Of a DNA stretch of 43,769 bases, positions 9,062 to 39,246 are shown in pieces; the stretch's first letter is position 1, and each line of letters begins with the position of its first letter. The translations under genes and the position numbers were made by a program. A model generated the notes under the pieces. That model was given only the letters and a program-made list of their open reading frames with translations, made no database searches and had not been told where the DNA came from. Source of the DNA: Parcubacteria group bacterium (GTDB taxonomy: Bacteria > Patescibacteriota > Patescibacteriia > UBA9934 > GWF2-40-263); the NCBI GenBank assembly GCA_013204395.1, contig JABMNZ010000001.1, forward strand, positions 1 to 43,769, in the 5' to 3' direction.

Positions 9062-9701
9062 GTGAGATATATGAACCACAAGTAGGTGTGGAAACTTACA
9101 AGTCAAAAAAATACAACACATCTTCAAGATGGTGGTCTCATGCACTTGTCATTAAAGAGGTGTTGGAAATGAATCCCAAGACTATATTAGAAGTTGGACC
9201 AGGGAATATGATTGTTTTATAAGTTTTATTAATTATGGGATTTGAAATTAAGACAATGGATATTGACGAGCGTATTAAGCCTGATTTTGTTTGTGATGTT
9301 TCCTCAGAAGGTCTTCTGAAATTAAATGCCAATTTTGATTTGGTGATTGCAGCTGAGGTTCTGGAGCACATTAGATATGAAGATTCTCTCAAGGTGCTAG
9401 ACAATCTGAGAAGTATTACTAGTAAGTTGCTCATAACTTTGCCACACACAAATAATGGTGCGACATTTTGGTACATGAAATTAAAAATTCCCATGTTCAA
9501 GATATGGTCTTTTTCAACAAAGTTTTTTTCAGAAGAGAAATACATGAATTTAATGGACAACATTACTGGGAAATTGGAAAAAAAGGATATAGTCTAAAAC
9601 GTCTTTTAAAGGATGTGGAAAACATTGGGTGGAAAGTTGAAAAAACATATATCAATCCAGATAATACATATCACCAAGTTTTTGTGTTATCAAAAAAGTA
9701 A
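9058..9701 (+). pseudogene. Disrupted class I SAM methyltransferase (in-frame TAA plus frameshift)
   Basis: MSEIYEPQVGVETYKSKKYNTSSRWWSHALVIKEVLEMNPKTILEVGPGNMIVL*VLLIMGFEIKTMDIDERIKPDFVCDV...LVIAAEVLEHIRYEDSL continues in the same frame after the TAA; near 9520-9560 the reading moves to another frame giving FNGQHYWEIGKKGYSLKRLLKDVENIGWKVEKTY. Confidence 0.78.
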
Positions 9702-9705
9702 CTCT

Positions 9706-10785
9706 ATGAGTGATCTCGACTGGATATTTGAACTTAAGAATAAAGTCCCAGCTTTTTTAAGGCACCTAGAAGGTCATGAGACACCTGGTTTTTTTAAGTA
9801 CTCATTAACCGGAGACTTATTTGATGAGACTGACAGATGGGGATTGGGAAATACTGTTTTTGCAATAAAATGTTATTACACTTTAAATCTTCTTGAGACA
9901 CTTCCATCTTCACAACTTGATTCGATGATCAAGTTTATTAAGAGTTTTCAAAAGGACGATGGATTTATCTTCGACCCACTCATACGCCGGAGGGCATTTT
10001 TTAGAGAAAAACTGTCCGCTCTAAAACAAAATGATTTTCAGAATTTCTTTCATCAAAAAATTATTCGGGCGGAAACACGTCAGTCCATCTCTTCGCTTTT
10101 ACTTTTAGGTCAAAAACCAGATTATTTTCCGTTAAACATTCCAAATACTCGCAAGGCGATTAACACATATTTATCTAAATTAAATTGGAAAAGTCCTTGG
10201 GGAGCGGGAAGTCATTTTTCTCATTTGTTATTTTTTTTGGCTAACAGTGATTTGCTAAATAAAGAGGAGTTAGTCGATTATTCAATTAACTGGGTCAATC
10301 GGATTCAAGATAAAGATTCAGGTTCATGGTTTAAAGGTGAGCCGTCAGTAGTAGAGAAAATTAATGGAGCAATGAAGGTGCTTACGGGATTCAAAGCGGC
10401 TGATAAAATGAAGATGGCTTATCCTGAGCAAATGATAGATCTTGCATTAGGTGCAAGAAATGATCGACACGCTTGTGATAACTTTAATGTTATCTACGTG
10501 TTAAAGTACGCCAACGAGGCAACAAACGGCTCATATCGTCTAGACGAAATAAAGCAATTCGCACATGACCGTCTTTCTATTTACCATGAGTACTACTGGC
10601 CCGAGCACGGAGGCTTTTCATTTCACAAAGGAAGAGCAAATACGTATTATTACAAAGCAATTATTACAAAGGGACTGCCTGAACCAGATGTTCACGGAAC
10701 TGTGCTCTTTCTTTGGGGAATCTCTCTTATCGCTCAGATTCTAAATATAGATAAGGAACTTGGTTTTAAGGAGTTTGTAACATAA
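9706..10785 (+). CDS. Hypothetical protein, possible alpha/alpha-toroid (prenyltransferase- or six-hairpin-glycosidase-like)
   Basis: Repeated helical motifs: [69 protein letters not shown] at 9706 preferred over the ORF-track start. Confidence 0.5.
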
Positions 10786-13021: not shown

Positions 13022-14083
13022 ATGGAAGAAGATTTGCAAGTCGCGATTGTTGGTTGTGGCCGAGTGGCTCAGCACATAAAGCAATTTTTTATTTCAGGTA
13101 TTTCTGGAGTGAATGTATCGATGGTCTGTGATGTTGTTCAAGAGAAGGCAGATATGCTTTCAGATGAGTTGGGAGCAGAGGCTGTCTATGAGCTTGGAAC
13201 CATTCTTCATAACGCTAAGATTCACACAGTGTTGATACTGACCGAGTCGGGGAATCATGGAGAGCATGCTCGTATGGCCCTTGAGGCTGGCAAACATGTT
13301 ATTGTCGAAAAACCCATTGCACTTCGCCCGCAGGAAGTTTTGGACAATATGAAGTTGGCAGCTGAAAAAGATTTGATGTACGCAGAGATAAAACAGAATC
13401 GTTTTAATCCCGCTATAGTTAAACTTAAAGAAACTTACGATCAGAAAAAATTTGGGAAAATCGTAATGGCAAGTATTCGCCTCGTGTGGTGCCGATATCA
13501 GGAGTACTATGAGGATGGTTGGCATGGAACCTGGGCCATGGACGGTGGGGTTATTAACCAACAAGCGATTCATCATATTGATGCACTTCGTTGGATCTGT
13601 GGTCCGGTAAAAGAGGTTGTAAGCGCGCAGACGAATGCACTGAACAATCTGGAGGCTGAGGACACAACTGTAGCCCTTGTTCGATTCAAAAGTGGAGCGT
13701 TGGGAGTGATTGAAGCAACGACCGCAGCCCGTCCAGATGACAAAGAGGCATCACTCATGATTGTTGGAGAAAATGGGACGGCTGAAGTTGGGGGAGTGGC
13801 TCTGAATCAAATTACACGTTGGGAGATTAAAGGAGATGATGCTGAAAAGGTAATGATGGAACATTCACAGGAGGTGCCAAATGGTTATGGTCTTTCACAT
13901 GGCCCTCTGTTGGAGGAAATATTTTCTCGATTGAAAGCGGGAAACATAGAACCTCCGATTACTGCAGAAGATGCATTGGAGACACTCTCCTTTGTGCATG
14001 CGCTGTACAAGAGTGCTGAAGATCATGCGTGGGTACACCTGGATGAAGCCCCATCTTCAAAATATTTAGGTCGGAGCCTATGA
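13022..14083 (+). CDS. Gfo/Idh/MocA family NAD(P)-dependent oxidoreductase
   Basis: VAIVGCGRVAQHIKQFF; HGEHARMALEAGKHVIVEKPIALRPQE; DGGVINQQAIHHIDALRWICGPVKEV. Confidence 0.92.
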   Translation: MEEDLQVAIVGCGRVAQHIKQFFISGISGVNVSMVCDVVQEKADMLSDELGAEAVYELGTILHNAKIHTVLILTESGNHGEHARMALEAGKHVIVEKPIALRPQEVLDNMKLAAEKDLMYAEIKQNRFNPAIVKLKETYDQKKFGKIVMASIRLVWCRYQEYYEDGWHGTWAMDGGVINQQAIHHIDALRWICGPVKEVVSAQTNALNNLEAEDTTVALVRFKSGALGVIEATTAARPDDKEASLMIVGENGTAEVGGVALNQITRWEIKGDDAEKVMMEHSQEVPNGYGLSHGPLLEEIFSRLKAGNIEPPITAEDALETLSFVHALYKSAEDHAWVHLDEAPSSKYLGRSL

Positions 14084-15120
14084 CATCTTTTCAAACGTAT
14101 GTTGGAAATGCCCAGGACTTAGATCTTTCTGATGTTGATTATTACGCCGCGATTCTTGGGGAGAAGCCCTCCCAGGGTGCGAAGTCACCCTCATTATGGA
14201 ATGCGGCGTTTCGTGCACATGGAATTTCTGCAAAAATGGTCCCGATGGATGTCAGTGTTGATAACCTGGGAAAACTAATTGAGGTCCTCCGTGACGACGC
14301 GCGGTTTATCGGGGGTGCGGTAACCATGCCCTATAAAGAGGTGGTCGGCCAGTACCTTGATGAATTGGAAGACACTGCTCAGGTTATCGGAGCGGTGAAT
14401 GTCTTATATCGTCAAGGAACAAAATTGGTGGGTGCTAATACAGATGGAGCTGGTGCGTTAGCGAGCTTGGAGGCACAGATTGATGGCAGTCTGTCAGGAA
14501 TGACCATATTAATTCTAGGATTAGGTGGTGCTGGTAAGGCCGTTGCTGCATTTCTTGCACAAGCTGTTGGAAAGGATGGAACGATGCTATTAGCGAACAG
14601 AACCCAAGCGAGTTCAGATGAATATGCAGGTCGCCTTCGAGATTGGTGTAACGTGGAGGTTGTTCAATGGCCGGTGGGTGCGGCATCGATTGCTAAAGTT
14701 GATACAATTGTAAACTGCACATCTGTTGGTTTTGAAGGGGAGCGTTCAGGTGCTCAAGGAGTCTATTCACTCGAGGGATTTAGCCCACTTGGTGAACTTG
14801 AATCGGTCCCACACCTAGTGGGTGATTTTCACAAGCAGTCATTTCTTAAAAAAGCCGCTCCAGCGATCGGAAAGAATGTTTCACAGAGCCTAGCGCTTCT
14901 GGCGGAGGCCAAGGTTTCAACATCAGTCTTCGATATTGTCTATCAACCAGTAGTCACAACACTTCTTTCTCATGCAAAACTTGCGGGACTCAGGACGGTG
15001 TCTGGTACTGGCATGAATCTTGAACAGGCAGTGATAGCTTGTCATAAGGCCATAATACATAACGAATTATCTCAATTAACTCCTAGTCAAGTACGAGAGG
15101 CTATGAAGCCCCTCTGGTAA
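14080..15120 (+). CDS. Shikimate dehydrogenase (AroE)-like protein
   Basis: GGAVTMPYKEVV, IGAVNVLYRQGTKLVGANTDGAGAL, LILGLGGAGKAVAAFL, FDIVYQPVVTTLLSHAKLAGLRTVSGTGMNLEQA. ATGA overlap with preceding gene. Confidence 0.87.
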   Translation: MTSFQTYVGNAQDLDLSDVDYYAAILGEKPSQGAKSPSLWNAAFRAHGISAKMVPMDVSVDNLGKLIEVLRDDARFIGGAVTMPYKEVVGQYLDELEDTAQVIGAVNVLYRQGTKLVGANTDGAGALASLEAQIDGSLSGMTILILGLGGAGKAVAAFLAQAVGKDGTMLLANRTQASSDEYAGRLRDWCNVEVVQWPVGAASIAKVDTIVNCTSVGFEGERSGAQGVYSLEGFSPLGELESVPHLVGDFHKQSFLKKAAPAIGKNVSQSLALLAEAKVSTSVFDIVYQPVVTTLLSHAKLAGLRTVSGTGMNLEQAVIACHKAIIHNELSQLTPSQVREAMKPLW

Positions 15121-15123
15121 CCT

Positions 15124-16047
15124 ATGAAAGATCTAAGCGAGAAAGACATTCAAAAAAATCTTCCAAAAGCATGTCGTCTGGGAGAAAAAGAGCCCGTTCA
15201 AGTTGGAGATGTGCTTGTGGGTGGTCCTGAGCCAATCCTTATGGCCGGTCCATGTACGGTAGAAAGTCGTGATCAGGTATTTGCTATTGCCAAGGCTGTG
15301 AAAGATGCTGGAGGTCAGATTCTTCGTGGAGGCGTTTTCAAGCCGCTCACATTTCCTTACGGAGACCCTCTTAGGCTACCGGATTCCGATGATACAACCT
15401 CCTCCCCGCTGGAAAATCCAATTCTTTCAACGGATCAAATGCTCGAACGCGCCGAGAGACGTTTTCAGTATTTTGCCGAGGCTGGAAAAGCTCATAATTT
15501 ACCGATTGTCTCTGAGGTAACATTCGCAGCTGCCGTAGAAATGATGGAGCCGTATGTTGACATGTTTCAAATTGGCTATCGTCACATGTTCAATATGGAT
15601 TTGTTATACCGATTAGCGGAGTCAGACAAACCAATCCTTCTCAAACGCCACTACGGAGAATCTATTCGGTCGCTCTTGGGAATGGTTGAGCACTACTATG
15701 CAAGAGGAAAAACAAATTTGATAATTTGCGAGCGCGGTGTGTCAGTGCCTCATACTCATAACGTTGTCTCACGCGCTGTGCTTGATGTTCAGGCCATTGT
15801 TGCATTGAATGAATATGCCCCAACGATTCCGGTGGTAGCAGACCCTTCTCACTCAACATTCCGACGGTCCTACGTTGTGCCTATGTCCCGAGCAGCTATC
15901 GCGGCTGGGGCTGATGGATTGCTTATTGACGTGCATCCAACACCTGATGACGCCTGGGTTGATCCGCTACAGGCACTAGATTTTGATGGATTTGCTGGTT
16001 TAGCACAAGACGTGAGGAGTGTGGCTCGTTCCATTGGGAGACTGTAG
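15124..16047 (+). CDS. DAHP synthase-like aldolase (type I, AroF/AroG-beta-like)
   Basis: ILMAGPCTVESRDQVFAIAKAVKDAGGQILRGGVFKPLTFPYG; MFQIGYRHMFNMDLL; ILLKRHYGES; IICERGV; VVADPSHSTFRRSYVVPMSRAAIAAGADGLLIDVHPTPDDAWVDPLQAL. Confidence 0.87.
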   Translation: MKDLSEKDIQKNLPKACRLGEKEPVQVGDVLVGGPEPILMAGPCTVESRDQVFAIAKAVKDAGGQILRGGVFKPLTFPYGDPLRLPDSDDTTSSPLENPILSTDQMLERAERRFQYFAEAGKAHNLPIVSEVTFAAAVEMMEPYVDMFQIGYRHMFNMDLLYRLAESDKPILLKRHYGESIRSLLGMVEHYYARGKTNLIICERGVSVPHTHNVVSRAVLDVQAIVALNEYAPTIPVVADPSHSTFRRSYVVPMSRAAIAAGADGLLIDVHPTPDDAWVDPLQALDFDGFAGLAQDVRSVARSIGRL

Positions 16048-16052
16048 AAGAT

Positions 16053-17450
16053 ATGAATCCACTTGTTTCTATTATTATTCGTGCCAAGAACGAGGGGGCG
16101 TGGATTGGCAAAACACTTGAAGCATTATCGAAGCAGACCTATAAGTCGTTCGAAGTCATTGTTGTTGATAATTTGTCTACGGACAATACGGTAAAGATTG
16201 TGGAGCAGTACGGGCATACAGTAGTTCCATTTACTGGTGAGTATCGACCAGGTCTGGCGATTAATGAGGGGATACGTGCCTCACGCGGGTCAATGATTGC
16301 CGTGTTGTCCGCTCATGCTGTGCCCGTGAATGAACACTGGCTTTCTCGTATGGTGGATGCTCTGTTGGAACATGCAGACCATGCGGGTGTTTATGGCCGA
16401 CAGCTTCCTACTGAGGAATCCTCACCATTTGATAAACGTGATTTGGTGATAACCTTTGGACCAGAGCGTCGACTTCAGCGTGTTGACAGTTTTTTCCATA
16501 ACGCCAATTCTCTCTTACATAGACATTTGTGGGAACGGCATCCTTTTGATGAGAGTGTCACAAACATTGAGGACCGTCTTTGGGCAAAGACCGTTCAAGC
16601 GCAAGGAGGTGTCATTGTCTACGAGCCTCGGGCACAGGTATATCATCACCATGGCATACACCAACACGGGAACGTCAAGCGAGCGGAAACAACGGTGAAG
16701 GTGTTGGATGCTCTAGAAAAAAGCGGTGAGGTTGTTGCTGTAGATAATCCGCAAGTATCTCAACTTATCTTGTCGGACGTGCTCACGATAGTTCCCATCT
16801 CACCTGACACAGCACGTAGAATGCTCCGGTGTCCTGCTGGAGGAAAGCGTACGTTTCTTGATGATTGTTTTGTTGAGCTTACCTCCTCGGTTCATGTGGG
16901 TGATGTTGTTGTGGCATCTGACCACTCAGAGGTGATTATGAGAGCTCAAGAAGTAGGTTTCAGAACGTTTTTTTATTCAACGGATGATTTTGATGGACCT
17001 TCCGCCTCTCTCAGCCAAGTCCTAGCAAGATCACTGAAGGAAGTTGAGGACACTTCTTCAAATACATCGAGATATGTACTCTATCTTTCCCCTACACATG
17101 TTTTTCGACCAAAGGGTCTCCTAGATAGATTGATTGAGAAAATAGTTGAAGAAGATGTTGATTCAGTGTTTGCAGCCAAACGAGATTATCGGGCGTGTTG
17201 GGCTGCAACCGGAGATTCATTTGTGCGGTTAGATGAAGGGTTTGTAAAACGTACGGCAAAACATCCGCTCTGGATGGGGTACACTGGTCTTGGATGTGTA
17301 ACAATCACAGATCTTATTAGGCAAGGGAAACGGGTTGGGGATTCTGTGGCACTGGTGCCAGTCGAGGATCCAATTGCTTTGCTGGATTTGCGAGAAGAAC
17401 AAGATTTTGAAACAGCCAGACGTATTTATTCTGTCTATAAACATGTATGA
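16053..17450 (+). CDS. GT2 glycosyltransferase fused to a cytidylyltransferase-like C-terminal domain
   Basis: N-term MNPLVSIIIRAKNEGAWIGKTLEALSKQTYKSFEVIVVDNLSTDNT. C-term YVLYLSPTHVFRPKGLLDRLIEKIVEEDVDSVFAAKRD...DLIRQGKRVGDSVALVPVEDPIALLDLREEQDFETARRI parallels the adjacent CMP-sugar synthetase. Confidence 0.78.
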   Translation: MNPLVSIIIRAKNEGAWIGKTLEALSKQTYKSFEVIVVDNLSTDNTVKIVEQYGHTVVPFTGEYRPGLAINEGIRASRGSMIAVLSAHAVPVNEHWLSRMVDALLEHADHAGVYGRQLPTEESSPFDKRDLVITFGPERRLQRVDSFFHNANSLLHRHLWERHPFDESVTNIEDRLWAKTVQAQGGVIVYEPRAQVYHHHGIHQHGNVKRAETTVKVLDALEKSGEVVAVDNPQVSQLILSDVLTIVPISPDTARRMLRCPAGGKRTFLDDCFVELTSSVHVGDVVVASDHSEVIMRAQEVGFRTFFYSTDDFDGPSASLSQVLARSLKEVEDTSSNTSRYVLYLSPTHVFRPKGLLDRLIEKIVEEDVDSVFAAKRDYRACWAATGDSFVRLDEGFVKRTAKHPLWMGYTGLGCVTITDLIRQGKRVGDSVALVPVEDPIALLDLREEQDFETARRIYSVYKHV

Positions 17451-18190
17451 GTCAAAGTAATATCGTTGCGATTATTCCTGCACGTGGAGGATCAAAGGGT
17501 TTGAGCAAAAAGAATATCCAGTTAATAACCGGACATCCGTTAATCGCATTTGCGATTGAAGCAGCGCGACAATCATCACTTATTCAGCGTGTTGTTGTAG
17601 CGACAGATGATGAAGGAATTGCTCAGGCGGGACGTGACTATGGTGGCGAGGTTCCAGAACTACTTCCAGATGAGTTAACACAGGATTACACTAGGCTTGA
17701 GGATACGTTTGCCTATATGACCAAACGTCTTCTTAAGGAGGATTCAACCATCACACACATTTGTTTTGTTGATCCCACTCGACCAATACGCCCACCAGGA
17801 TTTTTAGATGAGGCATTACAATGCATGTTGGATGGAGGATACGACTCAGTGATTAGTGGTGTGAAGGAGCACAAGTCGATTTGGAGGCAGCGTGATGATC
17901 AGCTTGAGAGACTTGACAGTGGCTTTACCACACGACAGTTAAAGAAGGATAAGCTGTTTGTTTGTTTTAGTGGAATGATCACATGTTCAAGAGCAGCTCT
18001 TATGGCACAGGGTCGTCGGCTTGGGGACAAGGTGAAGATTTTTGAGTTTGATGATTTGAATATGACAGTCGATATTCATACAAAAGACGAGCTTCGGCTT
18101 GCAGAGTTAATTATTCAAGAGTGGGGTCCAGAACGTTACATCGTTCCATCCAGGCCTTCTGGTTCTTATGGCAAAGCTGATTCAATTTGA
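17447..18190 (+). CDS. Acylneuraminate cytidylyltransferase-family protein (CMP-sugar synthetase)
   Basis: VAIIPARGGSKGLSKKNIQLITGHPLIAFAIEAARQS..VVVATDDEGIAQ; CFVDPTRPIRPPGFLDEAL; FDDLNMTVDIHTKDELRLAE. Confidence 0.9.
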   Translation: MSQSNIVAIIPARGGSKGLSKKNIQLITGHPLIAFAIEAARQSSLIQRVVVATDDEGIAQAGRDYGGEVPELLPDELTQDYTRLEDTFAYMTKRLLKEDSTITHICFVDPTRPIRPPGFLDEALQCMLDGGYDSVISGVKEHKSIWRQRDDQLERLDSGFTTRQLKKDKLFVCFSGMITCSRAALMAQGRRLGDKVKIFEFDDLNMTVDIHTKDELRLAELIIQEWGPERYIVPSRPSGSYGKADSI

Positions 18191-19679
18191 CCCACAGACA
18201 AGACGGGTTGCTGACGAAAGAGCAAGGAATCTTTCCAAGACATGGTTTTGTCATCAAGGAATTGATCACACCGTTTATCGTGGTCAATCATTGGGGTCCG
18301 TCATAGAGCTACAAGTTTTTCTGCAGGCAAGAAAGACAGGTCGGCAATTTTGTGGGCGTCTGATTTATGGAAAAAAAATGGTCCGAGCCATTTTTTCTTG
18401 CCTCATGCTTCTTATAAGAGAGAGGAGATTTGTGAAATCGAATTTTCATGTGGGGGCAGATGAGTATGTGTTCGTTCTTACCAAGTCCTCCCCACAAAGT
18501 TCCGTGGTAAAACCATTGTTGCCTGTTATAAGGGGGTTGGTTAAGGGAGGGGCTAAGGTGGTGCTCCTTACAGGTTCACAGGCAACCAAGGCAGAGCTAG
18601 CATGCTTGGTTCCGGGGGGCCGTGTGGTAAACATTGTCTCTTCAGATCACAGAAGATTTTTTGGTCAAGTCAGCTATCTTTGTAGGATCTTTTTTTTCGG
18701 AATCGTGGCGAGTGGGGAGAGGCGGTTTGCGTACGCAAATCTTTTGCACGAGGCACCAGAGCTCCTGTTTGCTGTTAGAGGGCTGGATACTTTGTCTGAA
18801 CAAGCCCACCTTCTTGTTGCCGCTACCGAGCGTCATGTGCACGAACGTTTCATCATGGAGCACATGAAAGCTAGAGGAGTAGCGTTTATCTTATTTCAGC
18901 ACGGGGTCACAGAGGAGACGGTAAAAAATATCATGGTAAATACCCCTTCTCAGGCCGATAAAATTTTTGCGTGGGGGGAGTTATCTAAACAATTTTTTCT
19001 TCACCACGGTGTTTGTGAGGAAAAGATTGTGGTGACTGGATCACCGATATTTGATAATTTCACTGTCCTTAATCGAGATCAACTTGCACCAATTTTTGAA
19101 AAATATCGACTTCCACGAAGACCAACCATTTTTTTCTCCGGTCAAAACTTTCTTCCTGAGAAGAATACGCAGTTGATAAAAATCGTTCTTGAGTCGTTTA
19201 ACAATCTTCTTCACCAAGATACGGATTTCAAGCCACAACTTCTTATCTCACCCCATCCAGCCAGTGCGGCCCAGACAAGCGAGAGTTACTATGAAGCCTT
19301 GGTTCATGAATCAGGTTTGAAATTAGATGAGAATGTGTTTATTCGAAGGATCAGGAACAATATTGAAAAGGTTTTACAGATTTCTGATGTGGTCATTAGC
19401 TCATCTTCAACGCTACATGTCTTTGCTGCACTTTCAAGAAAATCAACTATTTTGTTGAATATTGACGATGTTTCATCTATGGACGCCGTAAACATTGGAG
19501 CAGCTCTTGAGGCGACAAACAAGGAGTCTCTTATCAATCATCTACGAACATTGCTTTATAATAAAGAGGATCACTCTCGTTTAGAAAATCAAGAAAAGTT
19601 TGTTCGACAATATTGTCATTGGCCGCACTATGCAACTGATGACATTATCAAAGATTTACGTGAATTTGTCAGATTATGA
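18168..19679 (+). CDS. GT-B-like surface polysaccharide transferase
   Basis: FILFQHGVTEETVKNIMVNTPSQADKIFAWGELSKQFFLHHGVCEEKIVVTGSPIFDNF; LLISPHP; ISDVVISSSSTLHVFAALSRKSTILLN. Confidence 0.65.
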   Translation: MAKLIQFDPQTRRVADERARNLSKTWFCHQGIDHTVYRGQSLGSVIELQVFLQARKTGRQFCGRLIYGKKMVRAIFSCLMLLIRERRFVKSNFHVGADEYVFVLTKSSPQSSVVKPLLPVIRGLVKGGAKVVLLTGSQATKAELACLVPGGRVVNIVSSDHRRFFGQVSYLCRIFFFGIVASGERRFAYANLLHEAPELLFAVRGLDTLSEQAHLLVAATERHVHERFIMEHMKARGVAFILFQHGVTEETVKNIMVNTPSQADKIFAWGELSKQFFLHHGVCEEKIVVTGSPIFDNFTVLNRDQLAPIFEKYRLPRRPTIFFSGQNFLPEKNTQLIKIVLESFNNLLHQDTDFKPQLLISPHPASAAQTSESYYEALVHESGLKLDENVFIRRIRNNIEKVLQISDVVISSSSTLHVFAALSRKSTILLNIDDVSSMDAVNIGAALEATNKESLINHLRTLLYNKEDHSRLENQEKFVRQYCHWPHYATDDIIKDLREFVRL

Positions 19680-20668
19680 ATTTTATTTGCCCCTCCTGCA
19701 GTTCTACTATTGGGAAACATATTTTTTCGTCAGCCGAACGATTGCATGGGAGAGAGAAGAATACACACAACATTGTTCGCTGCTCGTCATGTGAACTTGT
19801 TTCGCTTAGTCCTCTTTCAAAAAAGGAAGACTACAAAATCCATTACCCAGCAAATTATATCTCACATCGACCCGCTCTAAACGTGGCTACTCCATTGTCT
19901 TTAAGAAAAGAGACATGTGTCCATAGAGTGCGTTCATTTGTCTGGAGTTCTTGGGTGATGGAACAATGGGGTTGGCCTTCACGCGTTTTAGGTCACAGTC
20001 TCTCCGTGTTCCGATGGTTTCGTGCGCGCCCCATTGGATTTTTTGGAAAAGAGAGAACGCTTCTTGATATTGGTTGTGGTGCTGGGGTGTTTTTACGACA
20101 GCAGGCTCAGCTAGGGTGGAGCGTCTTTGGTCTTGAGCCTTCTTATGACATGGTTGAGTCCTGTAGAAAAAAGGGGTTAGACGTTCGTCAGGGGTTCAGC
20201 ATCTCACAGGGATGGACCGAAAAGAAGTTCGACGTAATTTCATTGAATCAGGTTTTTGAACATGTCGACAATCCCCGCGAAGTCCTAATGGATGTGTATG
20301 AGTCTTTGCAGTTGGGTGGTGTGCTTGTCATGAATCTACCAAACTGGAGAAGTGGTGCAGCTCAAATTTTTCGATCCTACTGGTACAATCTAGACACCCC
20401 TCGTCATAACCTACTTGTGACACCTGGTACCCTCAGGGCAATGGTTGTTGAATCCGGTTTTCAAATTAAGGGCATGTACACATTATCAAGCATGAAGGGT
20501 TGGACTGGGTCCATTGAATATTGGTTAAGAGATTTTTTAGGTATTCATGTGTCCGAAGGGGCGATTAGTGGGAGCAAGTTTTTAAACTTGTTACTCAAGC
20601 CAATGGTTAAAGTTTTGGATCTACTCTATTTAGGGGATAATCTTCACGTAATTGCAAAAAAAAAATGA
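19676..20668 (+). CDS. Class I SAM methyltransferase with N-terminal zinc-ribbon-like motif
   Basis: MNFICPSC...VRCSSCELVSLSPLS; TLLDIGCGAGVFLRQQAQLGWSVFGLEPS; FDVISLNQVFEHVDNPREVL. Confidence 0.88.
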   Translation: MNFICPSCSSTIGKHIFSSAERLHGREKNTHNIVRCSSCELVSLSPLSKKEDYKIHYPANYISHRPALNVATPLSLRKETCVHRVRSFVWSSWVMEQWGWPSRVLGHSLSVFRWFRARPIGFFGKERTLLDIGCGAGVFLRQQAQLGWSVFGLEPSYDMVESCRKKGLDVRQGFSISQGWTEKKFDVISLNQVFEHVDNPREVLMDVYESLQLGGVLVMNLPNWRSGAAQIFRSYWYNLDTPRHNLLVTPGTLRAMVVESGFQIKGMYTLSSMKGWTGSIEYWLRDFLGIHVSEGAISGSKFLNLLLKPMVKVLDLLYLGDNLHVIAKKK

Positions 20669-20669
20669 T

Positions 20670-21645
20670 ATGAAATCAACTTGTTGTCTTATTTGTCAGA
20701 GCACTAGTTCGAGTGAGTTGCTTGTGAACTACCAAGATCCGTTTGCAAGAAAAATGGGAATTAAAGAGACACGGTATGTCATCTGTACACCATGTGGTTT
20801 TGTGTATCAAAACCCAATGCTTAGTGAGGAAATCGAAAAATTGTATACGGAGGATTATTACGAGGAAAAGGATTGGAGAGCGTTCGATCAGTATGCACTG
20901 AAGAAAGGAGGAGTACGCCAGGCAGACATTCGATTGGATATCAACACACGTAAATGTGATTGACTCCTCTGTTGAAAAAAGGATTTTGGACATCGGTTGT
21001 AATACTGGGGCACTGCTTTCTCATTTTGTCTTCTGTGGATGGACGTATGATGGGTTCGAGCCGTCCCCGAACATGGTTTCAATTGCGAGAAATCGTTATG
21101 ATCTTACAAATGTTCAAAATACTTTTTTTACAAGAAATGTTTTACCAGATCGTTCGGTTGATTTTATTACTTTGTTACATACACTTGAGCATATTGAGGA
21201 TCCATCCGAGATTCTCGAAGATGTTTCGATGGTTTTAAAAGATGGTGGGCTCTTGTATGTTGAAGTCCCAAACATTTTTGCTCCAAAGAGTTGCTTTTAC
21301 ACATCCTATTTCGCTGCTCCACACATTTATATGTTCTCTCCAAATTCTTTGAAAAGAATCTTGGAGCAGCATGGGTACATCGTGATGTTGGAGGGCACGC
21401 TTCCTCGTGGGATTTGTGCGCTAGCCAGAAAGGGGGTTCGGAAGTCTTCTGGAAAGGGTGATGATGTCAAGAGTATTACAAGTCTCATTCAGGGGTATAA
21501 AAAACAGCATGATCGACGGGCGATGTTGTACCGTCATGTTCTACACACCCTTCCTGTTCGAGCACTTATCAAGTTGCGAATTCCCATTATCAGTAAGTTA
21601 CTAGCGAAGCTGAAGGAACATATACGTATTAACAAGGTGATTTAA
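20670..21645 (+). pseudogene. Zinc-ribbon SAM methyltransferase split by a frameshift near 20940
   Basis: ORF 1 CCLICQ...CTPCGFVYQNPMLSEEIEKLYTEDYYEE...; ORF 2 (20956..21645) VEKRILDIGCNTGALLSHFVFCGWTYDGFEPS. Together they match the layout of the upstream gene. Confidence 0.75.
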
Positions 21646-24008: not shown

Positions 24009-24257
24009 ATGAGGAATTCAGTTGTAATTCCTGCATATAATACAACCTACAGTCAGGAAAAGACAATTAGCAAAGTTTCAAATAAATCGATGCAAACATT
24101 GGTATCTTCAACACTGACATTGTCTGCGTGAGTGGGGTAGGTTGTGTAATTAGGGTTTTTCTTGACTGTGATATGAGGTTTGGTAACGTAAACTGACTGA
24201 ATGGCAAACAGTGTGTGACTTTTCTAAGATCCGAACTTAAGCAGGGAATTGTATAGC

Positions 24258-26063
24258 ATGAAAATCTCCATCATCATTCCAACACACAATAGCGCTCAAT
24301 GTTTACCCAGGGCATTAAAGAGTGTTCTTTCGCAGTCTTATCAGGACTTTGAAATTCTTGTAGTTGATGATGCTTCAACAGATGAGACTGAGAGCATTAT
24401 GAAGACGTTTGTCGAGTTTGATAATAGAATTCAGTACATCCGTTTGAGTAAAAACTCTGGTGGAGCCGCAAAACCAAAAAATATTGGAATTGGCGCTTCA
24501 ACTGGAGAAATTATCGCGATACTTGATGCTGATGATGAGTGGATGCCAACTAAACTGGAGAAACAACTTGAGTTATTTCAGGAGGATACGAACCTGGGTT
24601 TTGTTGGATGTAATGCAATCATCGTAAATCGATTTGGCAAGGAGAGATTCTTTCAACTTGAAAAACCAGAGAGTATTCTGGATCGGATTCTGGAATCAGA
24701 CTACATGGGGAGTGGAAGTAGTACAGTTTATCGAAGAGAGGTTTTTCAAAAGGTTGGACTCTTTGATGAAGATTTAACCAGAGGACAGGATAGAGACATG
24801 CGGATTCGACTTGCACAATCTTTCAAATTCGATTTTGTTGATGGCGCTCCTCTAATTAAGTATCACCGACGCAAAAAACCTCTTTCTTCAACGTACTCTA
24901 AGGTGCAGGCAGAAAATATAAATAAACTTGAAGACAAGTATAAAAGCCTCTATTTGGGGCGTCCAAAAATCTACAGTGAGAAGTTGCGACATGATGGAAT
25001 AGGCTATATACTTGCTCGTGATCGCAAAAGAGCCTTTGGCGCTTTTGGCAAATCCATCGCACAAAATCCTCTTAACCTGAAAACTTTTTGTTTCGCAATA
25101 ATCTCGTTGTTTGGAAGGCGAGGTTTCGATGTCCTAAAAAATTTAAACGATTTGCGCCTAAGAAACGCCAACGAAACTATGGCTTCACAGAACACACCCT
25201 ATAGTGAAATGGATAAGAACAAGTTTTCATACGGGAAAAATTGGGCGAATTATTCAAAAAAAAAATTGGATAAAAACAGCTTACAAATTGCAGAAGATTC
25301 TTTGATGGATTTTCTTCCAAAAGAAGAATATCAAGGAGCAACATTTATCGACATTGGAAGTGGAAGTGGTATTTTCTCTCTTGCTGCACTAAAACACGGC
25401 GCAAAGGAAATCTTTAGTGTTGATGTGGATGAGAGTAGTCTTTCGACTACAAAAGCAACAAAAGAAAAGTTCGCTCCAGATGCAGAAAACTGGAATATCA
25501 ATTTCGGAGACATTCTCAAGGAATCTACTGTTGAACACCTGAGAGAAAAAGGTGACATTGTTTATAGCTGGGGGGTATTGATGGCTACGGGCGATATGTA
25601 CAAGGCGTTTGATAACATCGTGAAGCTTGTAAAACCCGGTGGTCATCTGATCATCGCAGTGTATAACACCACACCTTCATCAGAATTTTGGTGGCACACA
25701 AAAAAGATTTATAAAAAAGCCCCGTGGATCGTTCAAAAACTTATGGTTTATGCCATGTTTTTATACTGGATGATCAAACGCATGATTGGGAACGTTTATC
25801 TGTTCCTATCAAAGAAGCCTCTCAAAAATATTTTCTACCAACGACGTGGAATGCACATCTACAACGATACCGTAGATTGGCTTGGTGGATTCCCTTATGA
25901 GTACTGCACATTTGAGGAGGGAAAGGACTATATAGAAAAACACGGATTTAAACTCGTGAAAGCTCCAACAAAATTACCGTCGCACAAAAAGACTCTTTGG
26001 AATAGATGTGTATTTGCAAATACAGGTAACCATGAGTGGGTCTTTCAAAAACTCGCTAAGTAA
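24258..26063 (+). CDS. Bifunctional GT2 glycosyltransferase - SAM methyltransferase fusion
   Basis: N-term KISIIIPTHNSAQCLPRALKSVLSQSYQDFEILVVDDASTDET, ILDADDEWMP; C-term GATFIDIGSGSGIFSLAALKHGAKEIFSVDVDESSL, VYSWGVLMATGDMYKAFDNIVKLVKPGGHLIIAVYN. Confidence 0.88.
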   Translation: MKISIIIPTHNSAQCLPRALKSVLSQSYQDFEILVVDDASTDETESIMKTFVEFDNRIQYIRLSKNSGGAAKPKNIGIGASTGEIIAILDADDEWMPTKLEKQLELFQEDTNLGFVGCNAIIVNRFGKERFFQLEKPESILDRILESDYMGSGSSTVYRREVFQKVGLFDEDLTRGQDRDMRIRLAQSFKFDFVDGAPLIKYHRRKKPLSSTYSKVQAENINKLEDKYKSLYLGRPKIYSEKLRHDGIGYILARDRKRAFGAFGKSIAQNPLNLKTFCFAIISLFGRRGFDVLKNLNDLRLRNANETMASQNTPYSEMDKNKFSYGKNWANYSKKKLDKNSLQIAEDSLMDFLPKEEYQGATFIDIGSGSGIFSLAALKHGAKEIFSVDVDESSLSTTKATKEKFAPDAENWNINFGDILKESTVEHLREKGDIVYSWGVLMATGDMYKAFDNIVKLVKPGGHLIIAVYNTTPSSEFWWHTKKIYKKAPWIVQKLMVYAMFLYWMIKRMIGNVYLFLSKKPLKNIFYQRRGMHIYNDTVDWLGGFPYEYCTFEEGKDYIEKHGFKLVKAPTKLPSHKKTLWNRCVFANTGNHEWVFQKLAK

Positions 26064-29085: not shown

Positions 29086-30001
29086 GTCCCTCGGTCAGAG
29101 AAGTTTTTGATTCCCAGCCGAGGAGTTCCTTGGCCAGTGATGTGTCTGCCCAGGTTTCGCGGACGTCGCCTGGTTGCATGTCTAGATAGGTTTTCTCAAA
29201 AGTGATGTCTGTGTAGCCCTCGATCAGTTTGATCATGTCCATGAGGGGCTCAGCGTGGCCTCGACCAAGATTCATAACCGCCCAAGGGTGGTTTTTTTCT
29301 ATGGAGAGAACAATTCCATCAACAATGTCGTCGATATAGGTGAAGTCGCGTTCCATCTCTCCTTGGCCGTATACCTCTATTCCTTTGCCAGCATAGGCCA
29401 AATCCATAAACTTGAAGTAAGCCATGTCAGGGCGACCCCAGGGGCCATATACGGTGAAATAGCGTAGGCAGGTGATGGGAATGTCGTAAAGATGGTGGTA
29501 GGCATGGGCCATGTGCTCTGTGGCACGTTTGGTGGCGGCATACAGGGAGATCGGCTTATCCTCGCAGTCAGACTCTTGGATCGGGATGTTTGTGGCGTCA
29601 CCGTACACAGAAGAGCTGGATGCCATGGAGATACCTTTAACCCCATGACGCCGAGCTAGTTCAAGGATGTGCAATGTTCCCATCAAGTTAGACTCGCCAT
29701 AGGCAAAAGGATTGTCGATGGAGTAGCGCACACCAGCCTGAGCACCTTGGTGGGCAATGTGATCGATCTGGTGTTTTTCAAAAATAGCTTCAAGGGCTGG
29801 CAGGTCGCTGAGATCTGCTCGGTATAGGGTATGAGGGGTGTCTTTAAGAAGCTTTGAGATCCGAGCTTCTTTTAATCCAGGATCGTAATAATCATTAAAA
29901 TTGTCGAGCAGGATAAGCTCGTGACCATCTTGCCCAAGTCGTTTGGCTAGGTGAGCTCCAATGAATCCAGCTCCGCCAGTAATGAGAATCGTTTTTTTCA
30001 T
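29039..30001 (-). CDS. NAD-dependent epimerase, UDP-glucuronate 4-epimerase-like SDR
   Basis: ILITGGAGFIGAHLAKRLGQDGHELILLDNFNDYYDPGLK; HQGAQAGVRYSIDNP; YAATKRATEHMAHAYHHLYDIPITCLRYFTVYGPWGRPDMA. Confidence 0.92.
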   Translation of the reverse strand: MKKTILITGGAGFIGAHLAKRLGQDGHELILLDNFNDYYDPGLKEARISKLLKDTPHTLYRADLSDLPALEAIFEKHQIDHIAHQGAQAGVRYSIDNPFAYGESNLMGTLHILELARRHGVKGISMASSSSVYGDATNIPIQESDCEDKPISLYAATKRATEHMAHAYHHLYDIPITCLRYFTVYGPWGRPDMAYFKFMDLAYAGKGIEVYGQGEMERDFTYIDDIVDGIVLSIEKNHPWAVMNLGRGHAEPLMDMIKLIEGYTDITFEKTYLDMQPGDVRETWADTSLAKELLGWESKTSLTEGLKSFVAWYKDYYHKN

Positions 30002-30018
30002 AAAAGTAGGCTGTTGTT

Positions 30019-30050
30019 ACGTTGCGATATGCGAGTTTCTCCACTACAAT
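30019..30050 (+). promoter_or_regulatory. Sigma70-type promoter upstream of the first ligase-like gene
   Basis: TTGCGA, 17-bp spacer, TACAAT; ATG about 12 nt downstream. Confidence 0.5.
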
Positions 30051-30062
30051 AGCACATATTCT

Positions 30063-32105
30063 ATGACATTTCGTGGAGAAAATAAGTCTCTCTGGATTGA
30101 GAGAATTGCTCGCTATAGTGTGTATCTGGTGCTTCTGGTTCCGCTCCTTTCTTCAGATAAACTATTTTTTCCATATAGCTCAACAAAGGGGTACGTGATA
30201 ATGGCTCTTGTGGAGATTGCGGTTGTGGCAACACTTTGGCTACTTGTTGTGCGTCCACAAAGGCGGATCTCATGGGACCCCATCTCTATCGCCTTAACAG
30301 CCTTTGTTGGGATCCTGGAGCTGGCATCTATTTTTGGTGTGGATCCAACGTTCAGTTTTTGGGCAAGCATTGATCGCATTACCGGTGGGCTCATGTGGCT
30401 TCATATTTTGGCGCTGTATTTCATTGTTCGAATTCTTTTCCAAACGAAAGAAGACTGGGTGAAGTTGTTTACGGTGTCAGTGGGAGTTGGTCTCATTACG
30501 GCTGGAATTCATTTGGCACAACTAGCAGGAATTGAGTTTTCGGTTGGGTCTAATGGGGGATCAACTTTAGGTAACTCATCTTTCTTTGCAGCATACATTC
30601 TTTTTCAAATCGCTTTTGCCGCGTGGATCTGGTTGGAGGGAGCGGATAAGCGCATGCGAACCTATGGTGCTGTTTCGATGTTTGCTTTGATCGGTACACT
30701 TCTTTCTATTTCAACTCATGCATCCATTATTGCTTTCTTCGGTGCGCTTGTTCTTGTTCTTGGTGTGTGGCTTTGGGGGTCGGCAAAGGAAAAAGTATCT
30801 CGCGGAGGTATTGGTTTATTGATTGTCATGGTCGTAACATTCTTTTCTATTGTTGGTTTGGCTTTTGTTCCAGATTCCGTTGTTCAAAATACTTTTACGG
30901 ATTTTTCGACGTCCTCACGGTTTGTTGTGTGGGACATGGCAGTGCAGGCTATAAAGGATCGACCGTTTTTAGGATGGGGTCTTGAGAACTTTCAATATGT
31001 GAGCTTGGAATATTATAATCCTTGTCTTGGGACTGATATTTGTGGGCAAGAGATGTGGTACGACAGGGCTCATAACAAACTCCTAGATGTTGGAGTAGAG
31101 GCCGGAATCATTGGGCTTTTGAGTTACCTGGCGGTATTCGTTGTTACATTACTTGCTCTTGGCAAGATGGTTGTGTCGGCAAGGCATTCACGTGTGGCAG
31201 GTAGGTCCTTGCGAGGAACAGCGGCAATCGCTGTGGGTATTCTCGCCGCATACTTTGTTCAAAACTTAACCGTGTTGGATATTTCGGTCACCATGATGTT
31301 GTGGGTGCTGACACTCGCATGGATCTCATCTGTTGGGTCGTGGGGTAAAAAACCAGAGTCTTCAAAACGGCCAACGTGGATTGTTCCACCGGCCTTACTA
31401 GTCTCGTTCTTTTTACCAGTGATACTTTCTTCATTTGTCATTCATCCAGTACGGGCTAATGCCGCTTTGATGAATGTGGTGCATGCAAAGACTTATGATG
31501 AGCGCTTAACGAATCTTCCTATCGCCCTGGATGGTTCACCTGAGGGAGAAGATTTACGACGAGTTTTTCTTGCTAATGATACGGCCAGAAATATTTGGGC
31601 CACGGATCCAGAGGGGTTGTCAGCACTTGAAGAGCCAGTTAACTATGAGATCGATCTACTTGTTGCATCACTGCTGGATACAATGGAAAATTCACCTAAT
31701 TATCTCCGCGCTCCACTTGCGATAGCACTGCTCGCTCAGGCTCGCGGTAGATTGTATGATGTTGAGCAGTTCGCTCTGGCTGAACAGGTTTTGCTTGATG
31801 CTATCGAACTTAATCCTGTACACCCAAAGCCGTATTGGGCTTTAGCCTCTGTCTATCTTGAACAGGGGAAAGTAGATGAGGCACTGGAACTATTAGATGA
31901 GGTACGCACATTTGCACCTGATCTGGATGGGAGTCATTATAAGTACGTAATGGGGGTGATGTTCTTGCAAAACGATGATATCCTCTCTCAGGTGGCGAAT
32001 GACGCGCTTGCCGATCATCCTGGTATTTTAGCGGATCTTCAACGTCTTTTATCTAATAATATTGAACAAAACAAAGTTCAAATTCTGTATCAATTTCATT
32101 TGTAG
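30063..32105 (+). CDS. O-antigen ligase/polymerase-like (Wzy_C) membrane protein with C-terminal TPRs, copy 1
   Basis: Multi-TM; RFVVWDMAVQAIKDRPFLGWGLENFQ..DRAHNKLLDVGVEAGIIGLLSYL; TPR NPVHPKPYWALASVYLEQGKVDEALELL. Start aligned to paralog. Confidence 0.85.
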   Translation: MTFRGENKSLWIERIARYSVYLVLLVPLLSSDKLFFPYSSTKGYVIMALVEIAVVATLWLLVVRPQRRISWDPISIALTAFVGILELASIFGVDPTFSFWASIDRITGGLMWLHILALYFIVRILFQTKEDWVKLFTVSVGVGLITAGIHLAQLAGIEFSVGSNGGSTLGNSSFFAAYILFQIAFAAWIWLEGADKRMRTYGAVSMFALIGTLLSISTHASIIAFFGALVLVLGVWLWGSAKEKVSRGGIGLLIVMVVTFFSIVGLAFVPDSVVQNTFTDFSTSSRFVVWDMAVQAIKDRPFLGWGLENFQYVSLEYYNPCLGTDICGQEMWYDRAHNKLLDVGVEAGIIGLLSYLAVFVVTLLALGKMVVSARHSRVAGRSLRGTAAIAVGILAAYFVQNLTVLDISVTMMLWVLTLAWISSVGSWGKKPESSKRPTWIVPPALLVSFFLPVILSSFVIHPVRANAALMNVVHAKTYDERLTNLPIALDGSPEGEDLRRVFLANDTARNIWATDPEGLSALEEPVNYEIDLLVASLLDTMENSPNYLRAPLAIALLAQARGRLYDVEQFALAEQVLLDAIELNPVHPKPYWALASVYLEQGKVDEALELLDEVRTFAPDLDGSHYKYVMGVMFLQNDDILSQVANDALADHPGILADLQRLLSNNIEQNKVQILYQFHL

Positions 32106-32108
32106 TCT

Positions 32109-34112
32109 ATGAGTCATCCACACAAAACCGATCATTTACAAACAATTCTTCGCTGGGGAGTTTATCTTGTCCTCACAGCTCCGCTTTTAACCTCGAAGGC
32201 TTTTCTCTTCCCACACACCACTACAAAGGCCTACATAATGATGGCATTGGTGGAGCTGCTAGGCCTCGGACTCATATGGCTAATGTGGCATCGCCCAGAT
32301 GTGCGTCCAATAAAAAGTGCTCTGGGAATCGCACTAAGCATATTCGTGGGGATTGCCCTCCTTGCTTCTGTATTGGGCGTTGATCCGTCATTTAGTTTTT
32401 GGGCGAGTGTTGATCGCGTGACCGGAGGACTCATGTGGGTACACATGCTCGGATTCTTTTGGATTGTGACCACATTGTTTCAAACAAAAGCACAGTGGCA
32501 ACGAGTTATTGCGGTAAGCGTGCTTGTCGGTCTTGGGGCAGCATGTGTTCACCTACTGTCTTTTGCTGGGATTGAGCTAGGATCTGGACAGCGTGGTGGT
32601 TCTACGTTTGGAAACTCATCGTTCTTTGGAACGTACTTATTATTTCAAATTGGTTTGGCGGCCTACCTTGCAATGACCACAAAAGGAAAAATGTGGAACT
32701 ATGGTGTCACTGCCACAGGAATATTGTCACTTGCCTTATTACTTACAACAGCAAATGCCGCAAAGATTTCTTTTGTGGGGGCAGCGATATTGTTCGTAGC
32801 CCTCTTTTTTATCGTGAATGGAAAGACGGTGAGTCGTCGAAAAACTGGTTGGGGCATTTTTATTGCCTTGAGCGCCGCATTCGTACTTACGATTGTTCTG
32901 GCGTTTCAGGAGGGAAGTATTGTCTACGACGAGTTTGTAAAGATTGCCACGGGATCACGTTTTGTGGTTTGGAATATGGCCTGGCAAGCTTTTCTTGAAC
33001 ATCCATTTTTAGGGTGGGGTCTTGAGAATTTCCAGCTTGTCTCTTTAAAGTTTTATGATCCGTGTTTAGGCTCACCTTTGTGCGGAAGTGAGATGTGGTT
33101 TGATCGAGCACACAATAAGGTCTTAGATCTTCTTGTGGAGGTGGGGATTGTGGGACTCATAAGTTATCTCTCAATTTTTACATTGGCTATTTATAGCCTT
33201 TGGAAAAAGAAGAGCGTGGAGATTATTGTTGTGGGATCTGTATTGGCAGCTTATTTTGTTCAGAACCTGACCATTTTGGACACATCAACCATTATGATGA
33301 CATGGGTATTCTTTCTTGCCTTTGCATCTGCTGCTAGCACAAAGGAATTTGATGAAGAAACTGGGTCACCGAATAAAAAGACATTTTCCGTTGCGGTGCC
33401 CGCAGCACTAAGCTTGGTTTGGGTGTTTACGTTTACACTATTTGTTATCCAGCCAATTCAAGGAAACATGGCCATCAAGCAAACACTTGAATCACGGTCT
33501 ATTGATGAGCGTCTTGAGTCCTACGAGAAGGCTGTAACTCTATCTCAGCAGGGAATTGATTTCAGAAGGATTTATCTTGCAAATCAAACAGCGGGTATGT
33601 TGTGGAATGTGCCAGCCGGAGGAGAGGGGGTAAATAAAGAATTTTTGTTGTCAGAAATAGCTCTTATTGAGAAGGCTGTAAATGAGACATTAGCTAACTC
33701 CCCAAATTATTTGCGTGGAAATTTAGAATTATCTTATGTTCTTCAGGGGGCATCTCACACCCTTGATACAGAAATGTTGGATCGTGCTGAGGTTCTCATG
33801 CGAGATGCTGTTGCAAATAACCCAGTGCATCCACAGGCTTATTGGGCTCTGGCATCCGTTTTAATAGACCAGGGAAAAATTGAAGAGGCGGTTGAAGTCA
33901 CACGTTCTGTAACAACATTTGCACCGGACATTTCACGCGCACAAGTTTTTCATATGATAGCGGTTCTGTTCTTGGATGATCGCGAAGCATTGGAACTTGC
34001 TGCTCAAGAAGCTTTAGCTTTGTTCCCATCGATCCAACCTGATGTACAGACTCTTTTAATAGCTGATCCTGTTGCACAGCGTAGTCAGCTGCTTTCCTTC
34101 CTACATTTCTAA
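32109..34112 (+). CDS. O-antigen ligase/polymerase-like (Wzy_C) membrane protein with C-terminal TPRs, copy 2
   Basis: RFVVWNMAWQAFLEHPFLGWGLENFQ..DRAHNKVLDLLVEVGIVGLISYL; TPR NPVHPQAYWALASVLIDQGKIEEAVEV. Confidence 0.87.
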   Translation: MSHPHKTDHLQTILRWGVYLVLTAPLLTSKAFLFPHTTTKAYIMMALVELLGLGLIWLMWHRPDVRPIKSALGIALSIFVGIALLASVLGVDPSFSFWASVDRVTGGLMWVHMLGFFWIVTTLFQTKAQWQRVIAVSVLVGLGAACVHLLSFAGIELGSGQRGGSTFGNSSFFGTYLLFQIGLAAYLAMTTKGKMWNYGVTATGILSLALLLTTANAAKISFVGAAILFVALFFIVNGKTVSRRKTGWGIFIALSAAFVLTIVLAFQEGSIVYDEFVKIATGSRFVVWNMAWQAFLEHPFLGWGLENFQLVSLKFYDPCLGSPLCGSEMWFDRAHNKVLDLLVEVGIVGLISYLSIFTLAIYSLWKKKSVEIIVVGSVLAAYFVQNLTILDTSTIMMTWVFFLAFASAASTKEFDEETGSPNKKTFSVAVPAALSLVWVFTFTLFVIQPIQGNMAIKQTLESRSIDERLESYEKAVTLSQQGIDFRRIYLANQTAGMLWNVPAGGEGVNKEFLLSEIALIEKAVNETLANSPNYLRGNLELSYVLQGASHTLDTEMLDRAEVLMRDAVANNPVHPQAYWALASVLIDQGKIEEAVEVTRSVTTFAPDISRAQVFHMIAVLFLDDREALELAAQEALALFPSIQPDVQTLLIADPVAQRSQLLSFLHF

Positions 34113-34123
34113 AGCGTACTTTT

Positions 34124-37731: not shown

Positions 37732-39246
37732 ATGCAGAAGACCGCCGTCCTATTCCTTGGCCTTGCGATCTCCATCGCAAGCTTCGGCATCTCCACGGTC
37801 CACGCTTCAGGCGCGGCCACGTTCTCGCTGTCTCCAACAAACACTTCGGTGGATACGGGAGACAGTTTTAGTTTGAGCGTACTCATCGATCCTAGTGGGG
37901 AGTCTCTCGACACTGCGCGTGTGGAGATTGAGTTTGACGCAGCCTTACTCGAGGTCACAGCCTTTGATCTTGGAAGTCTGTTCCCATACGTTTCACCATC
38001 AAGCGAAATTGATAATACCGCTGGTGAACTTTCGCAAGGAGCATTTAAGTTCGGAACAGCCGTGACGAGTTCAGGAACATTCGGAACGGTTACGTTTCGC
38101 GCCTTGAGTTCTGGAGCAGCCACAATTTCAGTGACGAGCGACTCACGACTAATTTCAGACGGAGTTGAAAAGATAAACACAAGCTCTCTTGGATCTGCAA
38201 CGATCTCAATCGACGGTGCTGAGGTTGAGGCAATCGCCGATGAAGTAACAACCGATGAGTCTTCGTCTGGTAGTGGGTCTTCATCATCGGCTTCACTAGA
38301 AGAGCAGGCACTTGTCTACTTCGGAGCTTTCTACGCACGCATGCCATCAAATGCTAATGATTGGGCAGCCCTTCACTGTATCGCCTACGGCGGCTGTCAG
38401 GGTGACCCACGAAATGTGGATGCTGAGTCTGCAGCGCTCGTTATATATGGAGCAAAATATGGAGCCATGCCTGCAACTTCAATGGAATGGAATGTAATCC
38501 ATACATTGGCTTATACAGATTTCCTAGGTGAATCAACTCAGGTTGTTTCAGAAGAGACATCTGAGGTTGCTGAAGTGGTTGTAGAAGAAGAGGTGGTTGA
38601 AGAAGAGGTCGCCACCGAAGAAGAGGTAGTGGTAGAAGAGGTTGAAGAAGTAGTAGTAGAAACAGATGTGAGCCTTGAGGCTCAGGCACTTGTCTACTTC
38701 GGAGCTTTCTACGCACGCATGCCATCGTCTAGCAATGACTGGGAAGCACTTCACTGCATCGCCTACGGCGGTTGTCAGGGTGACCCACGAGATCTAGTGG
38801 CAGAACAAAATGCTCTCATCTTGTTTGGTCAGAAGTACGCCAAGATGCCAGCAACGTCTATGGAATGGAATGTGCTTCACACAATTGCTTACACAGACCT
38901 ACTTACCTACGACATGCAGGGAGATGAAGAGGAAGTAGTAGAAGAGATTATTGAAGAAGTCGTTGAAGAGGTAGTAGAAGAGGTAGTAGAGGAAGAGGTT
39001 GTCGAAGAGCTTACAGTTGAGCAGCAGGCGATTGGCTGGTTTGGCCAATTGACTGGTGCACTTCCATCTTCTGATGCCGACTGGACAGCAGTTGATTATA
39101 TGGTGAACGGATACACACCTGAGACACAGGACCTAGAGGCTGAGTCTGCAGCGATAACAACATTTGTAAGCACATTCGGTGCACTTCCTGGATCTGATCA
39201 GGACTGGAACATTGTTGCAGCAATTGCTTACTCAGGAGCCTTCTAA
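37732..39246 (+). CDS. Secreted cohesin-like protein with Glu/Val-rich linkers and three copies of an uncharacterised about 74-aa repeat
   Basis: Signal peptide MQKTAVLFLGLAISIASFGISTVHASG; cohesin-like FSLSPTNTSVDTGDSFSLSVLIDPSGESLDTARVEIEFDAALLEV...; repeats ALVYFGAFYARMPS..DW.ALHCIAYGGCQGDPR. Confidence 0.75.
   Translation: MQKTAVLFLGLAISIASFGISTVHASGAATFSLSPTNTSVDTGDSFSLSVLIDPSGESLDTARVEIEFDAALLEVTAFDLGSLFPYVSPSSEIDNTAGELSQGAFKFGTAVTSSGTFGTVTFRALSSGAATISVTSDSRLISDGVEKINTSSLGSATISIDGAEVEAIADEVTTDESSSGSGSSSSASLEEQALVYFGAFYARMPSNANDWAALHCIAYGGCQGDPRNVDAESAALVIYGAKYGAMPATSMEWNVIHTLAYTDFLGESTQVVSEETSEVAEVVVEEEVVEEEVATEEEVVVEEVEEVVVETDVSLEAQALVYFGAFYARMPSSSNDWEALHCIAYGGCQGDPRDLVAEQNALILFGQKYAKMPATSMEWNVLHTIAYTDLLTYDMQGDEEEVVEEIIEEVVEEVVEEVVEEEVVEELTVEQQAIGWFGQLTGALPSSDADWTAVDYMVNGYTPETQDLEAESAAITTFVSTFGALPGSDQDWNIVAAIAYSGAF

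Follow-up and report, generated by a model that had tools for sequence, protein, structure and literature searches.

The DNA analysed here (the window, 43,769 nucleotides) makes up all of contig C1 in a Parcubacteria-group genome of 1.10 Mb that is 97.7% complete. At 13022-19679 it carries a six-gene operon, the probable product of which is an unusual acidic surface sugar. Judging from sequence, we consider it likely that the operon is a dedicated biosynthesis-and-transfer module for a 3-deoxy-2-ulosonic acid of a cell-surface glycan, activated with cytidine monophosphate (CMP). The core of this proposal, an ulosonic acid derived from phosphoenolpyruvate (PEP), CMP-activated and placed in a surface glycan, had been put forward in the initial annotation. 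It is supported by the altered aldose site of a synthase related to 3-deoxy-D-arabino-heptulosonate 7-phosphate (DAHP) synthase (DAHPS), by the linkage of its gene to a cytidylyltransferase (CT) gene in 6/6 genomes where this variant was found, and by the lack of chorismate synthase (AroC) in all six. The operon belongs to a glycan locus rich in glycosyltransferases and methyltransferases, which also encodes a Polysacc_synt flippase, three proteins with Wzy_C and tetratricopeptide repeat (TPR) domains and a Bac_transf initiating transferase. The genes and motifs discussed below are as follows.

13022..14083, + strand: Gfo/Idh/MocA oxidoreductase, WlbA-like, 353 aa (Pfam, PDB matches, profile, orthologues 58-76%)
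14080..15120, + strand: AroE-like dehydrogenase, 346 aa (Shikimate_dh_N, 6.9e-19)
15124..16047, + strand: DAHP-synthase-like (type I-beta) synthase with altered aldose site, 307 aa (DAHP_synth_1, PF00793, 1.2e-39)
15340..15354, + strand: KPLTF motif in the DAHPS-like gene, residues 73-77, replacing KPRTS
15745..15762, + strand: VPHTHN loop in the DAHPS-like gene, residues 208-213, replacing the GIRTFE loop
16053..17450, + strand: family 2 glycosyltransferase (GT2, by Pfam) fused to a pseudo-cytidylyltransferase domain, 465 aa, the CT-like part at about residues 240-465
17447..18190, + strand: NeuA/PseF-type CT, 247 aa (CTP_transf_3, 1.3e-19)
18168..19679, + strand: GT-B-type transferase, 503 aa (NF046086/TIGR04396, below cut-off)
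19676..20668, + strand: S-adenosylmethionine (SAM) methyltransferase, the next operon gene, orthologous in all five loci compared (Pfam and locus comparison)
20956..21645, + strand: second SAM methyltransferase (annotation and locus comparison)

The DAHPS-like synthase and its aldose site

By sequence and predicted fold the synthase is a type I-beta DAHPS, with 222 bits against TIGR01361 (below the 268-bit cut-off) and 1vs1 as the best fold match of its model. It scores 255 bits as DAHPS and 78 bits as KdsA, for which the cut-off is 242 bits, and KdsA-like proteins fall outside its group in the tree. In the KPRT region of the characterized enzyme R67 and T68 bind erythrose 4-phosphate (E4P), and R60 and K65 bind PEP (PMC6362186). 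When the roles given there are transferred, the PEP residues R68, K73, R153, K174 and R204 are kept in the synthase, and so are the metal ligands C44, H243, D269 (Asp in place of Glu) and D280. The Glu-to-Asp exchange was considered as a signature of the variant and was dropped, as it is present in some canonical enzymes of the candidate phyla radiation too. The E4P arginine of KPRT is replaced by Leu75; the position is Leu in 5/5 orthologues and Ala in the single related enzyme of another genome (G438, described below), and it is Arg in 58/58 other collected homologues with a readable motif, some of these being near-duplicates. The loop after KPLTF has about 25 residues more than its canonical counterpart, and the GIRTFE loop has been replaced by GV(A/S)VPHTHN, with a 3-residue insertion and loss of the Arg. 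Given the loss of the E4P arginine and the rebuilding of two active-site loops, E4P is probably not the aldose used; the substrate may instead lack a phosphate, as does that of NeuB.

The five orthologues form a clade with 100/100 support on a long stem inside the type I-beta enzymes. The enzyme of G438 joins them with 92/66 support only and is flagged for long branches, and its grouping therefore also rests on shared motifs and gene context. The phylogeny suggested in the initial annotation places the protein within type I-beta and apart from KdsA-like proteins. The named orthologues are all from Candidatus Uhrbacteria, according to a contig scan with two exact 7-residue patterns, an insensitive method which returned three orthologues.

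Conservation of the operon and the missing aromatic pathway

All six open reading frames (ORFs) of the initial annotation were confirmed with their coordinates and spacings. They overlap by 4 bp at 14080/14083 and 17447/17450 and by 23 bp at 18168/18190, with gaps of 3 bp at 15120/15124 and 5 bp at 16047/16053, and the operon runs on into the methyltransferases (19676-21645). The order MocA, AroE-like, DAHPS-like, GT2/CT-like, CT, GT-B, methyltransferase recurs in G037 (L018), G005 (L019), G015 (L020) and G389 (L090). Together with the present genome these represent two families and five genera, G389 being from the other family, and the flanking genes vary among the five loci while the operon order is constant. 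Pairwise protein identity is 65-88% for DAHPS, which is better conserved than any other member (mean 72%), 57-75% for CT, 58-76% for MocA, 48-77% for the GT2 fusion, 42-65% for AroE and 28-56% for GT-B. The arrangement is not due to chance, as it recurs in four further genomes whose first five genes show 42-88% protein identity. The module is sparse (4/381 genomes sampled from the class, and 1/86 in the order of G389). The profile searches covered Patescibacteria as well as plasmid and viral collections; the homologues in the plasmid collection are 36-39% identical among the matches listed, and on viral contigs one DAHPS with a canonical motif (KPRTD) was seen (L157/L158:4998-5693, IMG/VR contigs of 33 and 173 kb).

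A sixth genome, G438 from another class, has a variant DAHPS followed by a CT and then a methyltransferase/GT-B fusion, with an adjoining radical SAM/SPASM gene. Its synthase is a second-type variant with the motif KPATF, CERGVTAPYTHD. MocA, AroE and the GT2 fusion are lacking from this locus, so that only DAHPS-like, CT and GT-B are common to all six genomes.

A search with PF00793 found a single DAHPS/KdsA-family gene in the genome that carries the window, that of the operon. The initial annotation had seen no other shikimate genes nearby, and for two of them this now extends to the whole genome: AroC is absent, with 14/14 control genomes positive, and 3-dehydroquinate (DHQ) synthase (AroB; PF01761) is absent, with 11/14 controls positive. 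As both are missing, the synthase serves no shikimate pathway. Among 33 genomes with a DAHPS-family gene, AroC is found in 16/27 with canonical enzymes as against 0/6 with the variant. Outside the variant clade, DAHPS genes also occur in Patescibacteria genomes without chorismate synthase (G106, G094, G216, G261, G290, G387, G428, G432, G509 and G613). A further genome of this kind, G172, has a DAHPS with canonical motifs (KPRSS, CERGISTF) directly beside a KdsB-like CT (L092:9118-10749), possibly an independent second DAHPS-CT pairing.

NeuB (PF03102) was found in none of the five Uhrbacteria genomes, which are five of the six with the variant, so that the NeuA-like enzyme there lacks the customary source of its ulosonate. 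In G438 a separate NeuB lies next to another CT, which has an intact DxD motif, and for this reason the variant DAHPS-CT pair of that genome seems to provide a further route to an ulosonate and not simply the nonulosonic acid route.

The proposed pathway and its alternatives

In the pathway that we favour, the DAHPS-like enzyme would condense PEP with an aldose, as its conserved residues for PEP and metal suggest. Probably the WlbA-like and AroE-like enzymes act on a single carbon of either the aldose precursor or the product, which is oxidised and then reduced again; this might set the stereochemistry, and it is a speculative and the weakest step. The MocA protein matches 3q2i (4e-57) and 3q2k (5e-57), which we take to be WlbA structures, the next match being at 1e-19 or worse, and it keeps the EKP lysine and the GG...IHHID motif. 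WlbA is the UDP-GlcNAcA 3-dehydrogenase, a nucleotide-sugar enzyme. Of the shikimate dehydrogenase site, the AroE-like protein has retained Lys, Asn, Asp and Gln, with the catalytic Lys and Asp in VTMPYK and NTDG, and the first Ser of the carboxylate-binding SxS is lost (GAKSP here, GA(K/R)SP in 5/5). Among the protein's closer relatives of solved structure is a 5-ketofructose reductase (7cok), and there is therefore a precedent for a change of substrate in this family.

The CT is NeuA/PseF-like and keeps the N-terminal motif RGGSKGL..KN for cytidine triphosphate (CTP); from its family and motif it is predicted to form the CMP-sugar acid. The domain assignments of the initial annotation were correct in outline, with a correction for the GT2 fusion, the C-terminal domain of which is a degenerate CT paralogue. 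That this half is related by descent to the CT family is seen from a profile-profile match at E 8e-21 (its PseF-like match is weak), and the CTP motif RGGSKG..KN is absent from it in 5/5. It might be a partner subunit of the CT, or it might bind the CMP-sugar and so couple activation to transfer. The GT-B enzyme would then transfer the CMP-sugar acid, and the methyltransferases could decorate it. The GT-B protein has sub-threshold matches to NF046086/TIGR04396 and is distantly related to the BFO_1060/TIGR04396 surface-carbohydrate families; a role of BFO_1060 as nonulosonic acid transferase could not be confirmed. Its HP motif lies within ISPHPA, and its structure model (predicted local distance difference test score 56) has a generic GT-B fold which is too poor to tell the donor type.

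A more specific version is offered tentatively. According to it the DAHPS scaffold may have been converted to a synthase that takes an unphosphorylated aldose, thereby providing a route to a CMP-ulosonic acid apart from the Kdo (3-deoxy-D-manno-octulosonate) and nonulosonic routes, with stereochemistry set by the WlbA-like and AroE-like enzymes, activation tied to transfer by the GT2/pseudo-CT fusion, and an undescribed residue as the product.

Several observations weigh against the proposed pathway. The variant is found in six genomes only, mostly related ones. Both remodelled loops of the synthase are low-confidence segments of the structure model, and they hold His, Lys and Arg residues which could bind a phosphate by other means. 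E4P may be available in the five Uhrbacteria, as all of them have a transketolase N-terminal domain. In the CT the second metal Asp, corresponding to Asp211 of the meningococcal enzyme, is His (DxH in 6/6); Asp209 and Asp211 form the DxD metal motif of that enzyme, and DxD is kept in the two other CTs checked, that of G594 and the NeuB-linked one of G438. With His at this position the CT activity is not certain, and CMP-ulosonate formation stays a prediction.

It is unlikely that the DAHPS-like enzyme still uses E4P, the DAHP being dephosphorylated and CMP-activated to give a seven-carbon 3-deoxy-heptulosonate residue. The overall closeness of the synthase to type I-beta DAHPS and the transketolase domain would fit this, and the KPRSS enzyme beside a KdsB-like CT in AroC-less G172 suggests that such a route may exist elsewhere. 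However, the E4P arginine is lost in 6/6, domain annotation gave no sugar phosphatase among the operon genes, and G438 has no transketolase match. Rather improbable is the presence of two unrelated pathways, with the DAHPS-CT pair making the sugar acid and a different sugar of the glycan being modified by the WlbA-like and AroE-like enzymes. It would be in keeping with the nucleotide-sugar chemistry of WlbA and with the retention of DAHPS, CT and GT without MocA and AroE in G438, but the MocA-AroE-DAHPS adjacency is retained in 5/5 Uhrbacteria loci while the neighbours change.

An aminoshikimate or 3-amino-5-hydroxybenzoic acid (AHBA) link, or a shikimate-like carbocycle, was also raised in the initial annotation. 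That a cyclitol or an acid of the aminoshikimate type is the product of the DAHPS-, AroE- and MocA-like enzymes is very improbable: most shikimate-site residues are retained in the AroE-like protein, but the genome has no DHQ-synthase-family gene for ring closure, the MocA protein is closest to 3q2i/3q2k, and G438 has the DAHPS-CT pair without AroE or MocA. A leftover or incomplete ordinary shikimate pathway is hardly credible, being favoured by the family names only and opposed by the absence of AroC and AroB, the altered substrate site and the embedding of the variant in a glycan operon in six genomes. The aminoshikimate/AHBA and ordinary shikimate readings were therefore rejected on the missing AroB and AroC and on the MocA ancestry.

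Comparison with known systems and other features of the locus

On many bacterial surfaces acidic 3-deoxy sugars are dominant, and to our knowledge the known synthases for them belong to the KdsA and NeuB groups. With KdsA/KdsB of Kdo synthesis the proposed pathway would share condensation of PEP with an aldose on a DAHPS/KDO8PS fold, CMP activation and transfer. Unlike that system, the operon has a synthase nearer to DAHPS than to KdsA and a CT that is NeuA/PseF-like and not KdsB-like, and it lacks KdsC/KdsD-type genes. NeuB/NeuA, PseI/PseF and LegI/LegF resemble it in the type of CT, the surface glycan and probably the lack of a phosphatase step, whereas the five Uhrbacteria have no NeuB, and the operon has a synthase of the DAHPS family and the extra AroE-like and WlbA-like enzymes. 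Type I-beta DAHPS shares the TIM barrel (PDB 1vs1, 1zco), the PEP residues and the metal site; the variant differs by KPRTS to KPLTF, the loop insertion, GIRTF to GVxVPHTHN and the lack of a shikimate pathway. The operon MocA protein is like WlbA in sequence and motifs, but neither an aminotransferase nor an acetyltransferase accompanies it in the operon, and unlike an AHBA/aminoshikimate cluster the genome has no DHQ-synthase-like cyclase (PF01761).

In the open-access literature no paper was found that joins DAHPS with a CMP-ulosonate, and none on Uhrbacteria glycans. If true, a DAHPS-derived synthase in the ultra-small Patescibacteria would add a route to acidic 3-deoxy sugars. It would also caution annotators that 'DAHP synthase' in such genomes need not imply aromatic biosynthesis, and would offer a directly testable enzyme set for the surface chemistry of uncultured, probably host-dependent bacteria.

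Some other features of the window may be mentioned. A 390-aa protein (9613-10785) with no Pfam, NCBIfam or PHROG match is conserved across the five glycan loci and also occurs in G438. A fusion protein of GT2 and methyltransferase lies at 24249-26063, and the three Wzy_C (O-antigen ligase/polymerase) proteins stand in succession at 29961-36028, with C-terminal TPR repeats. Two cohesin-domain proteins (37732-39246 and 40230-41465) are found at the end of the glycan locus. At its edge a tRNA-Val (602-678) adjoins a poly(A)-polymerase-like gene, a homologue of which also flanks the glycan locus in G015.

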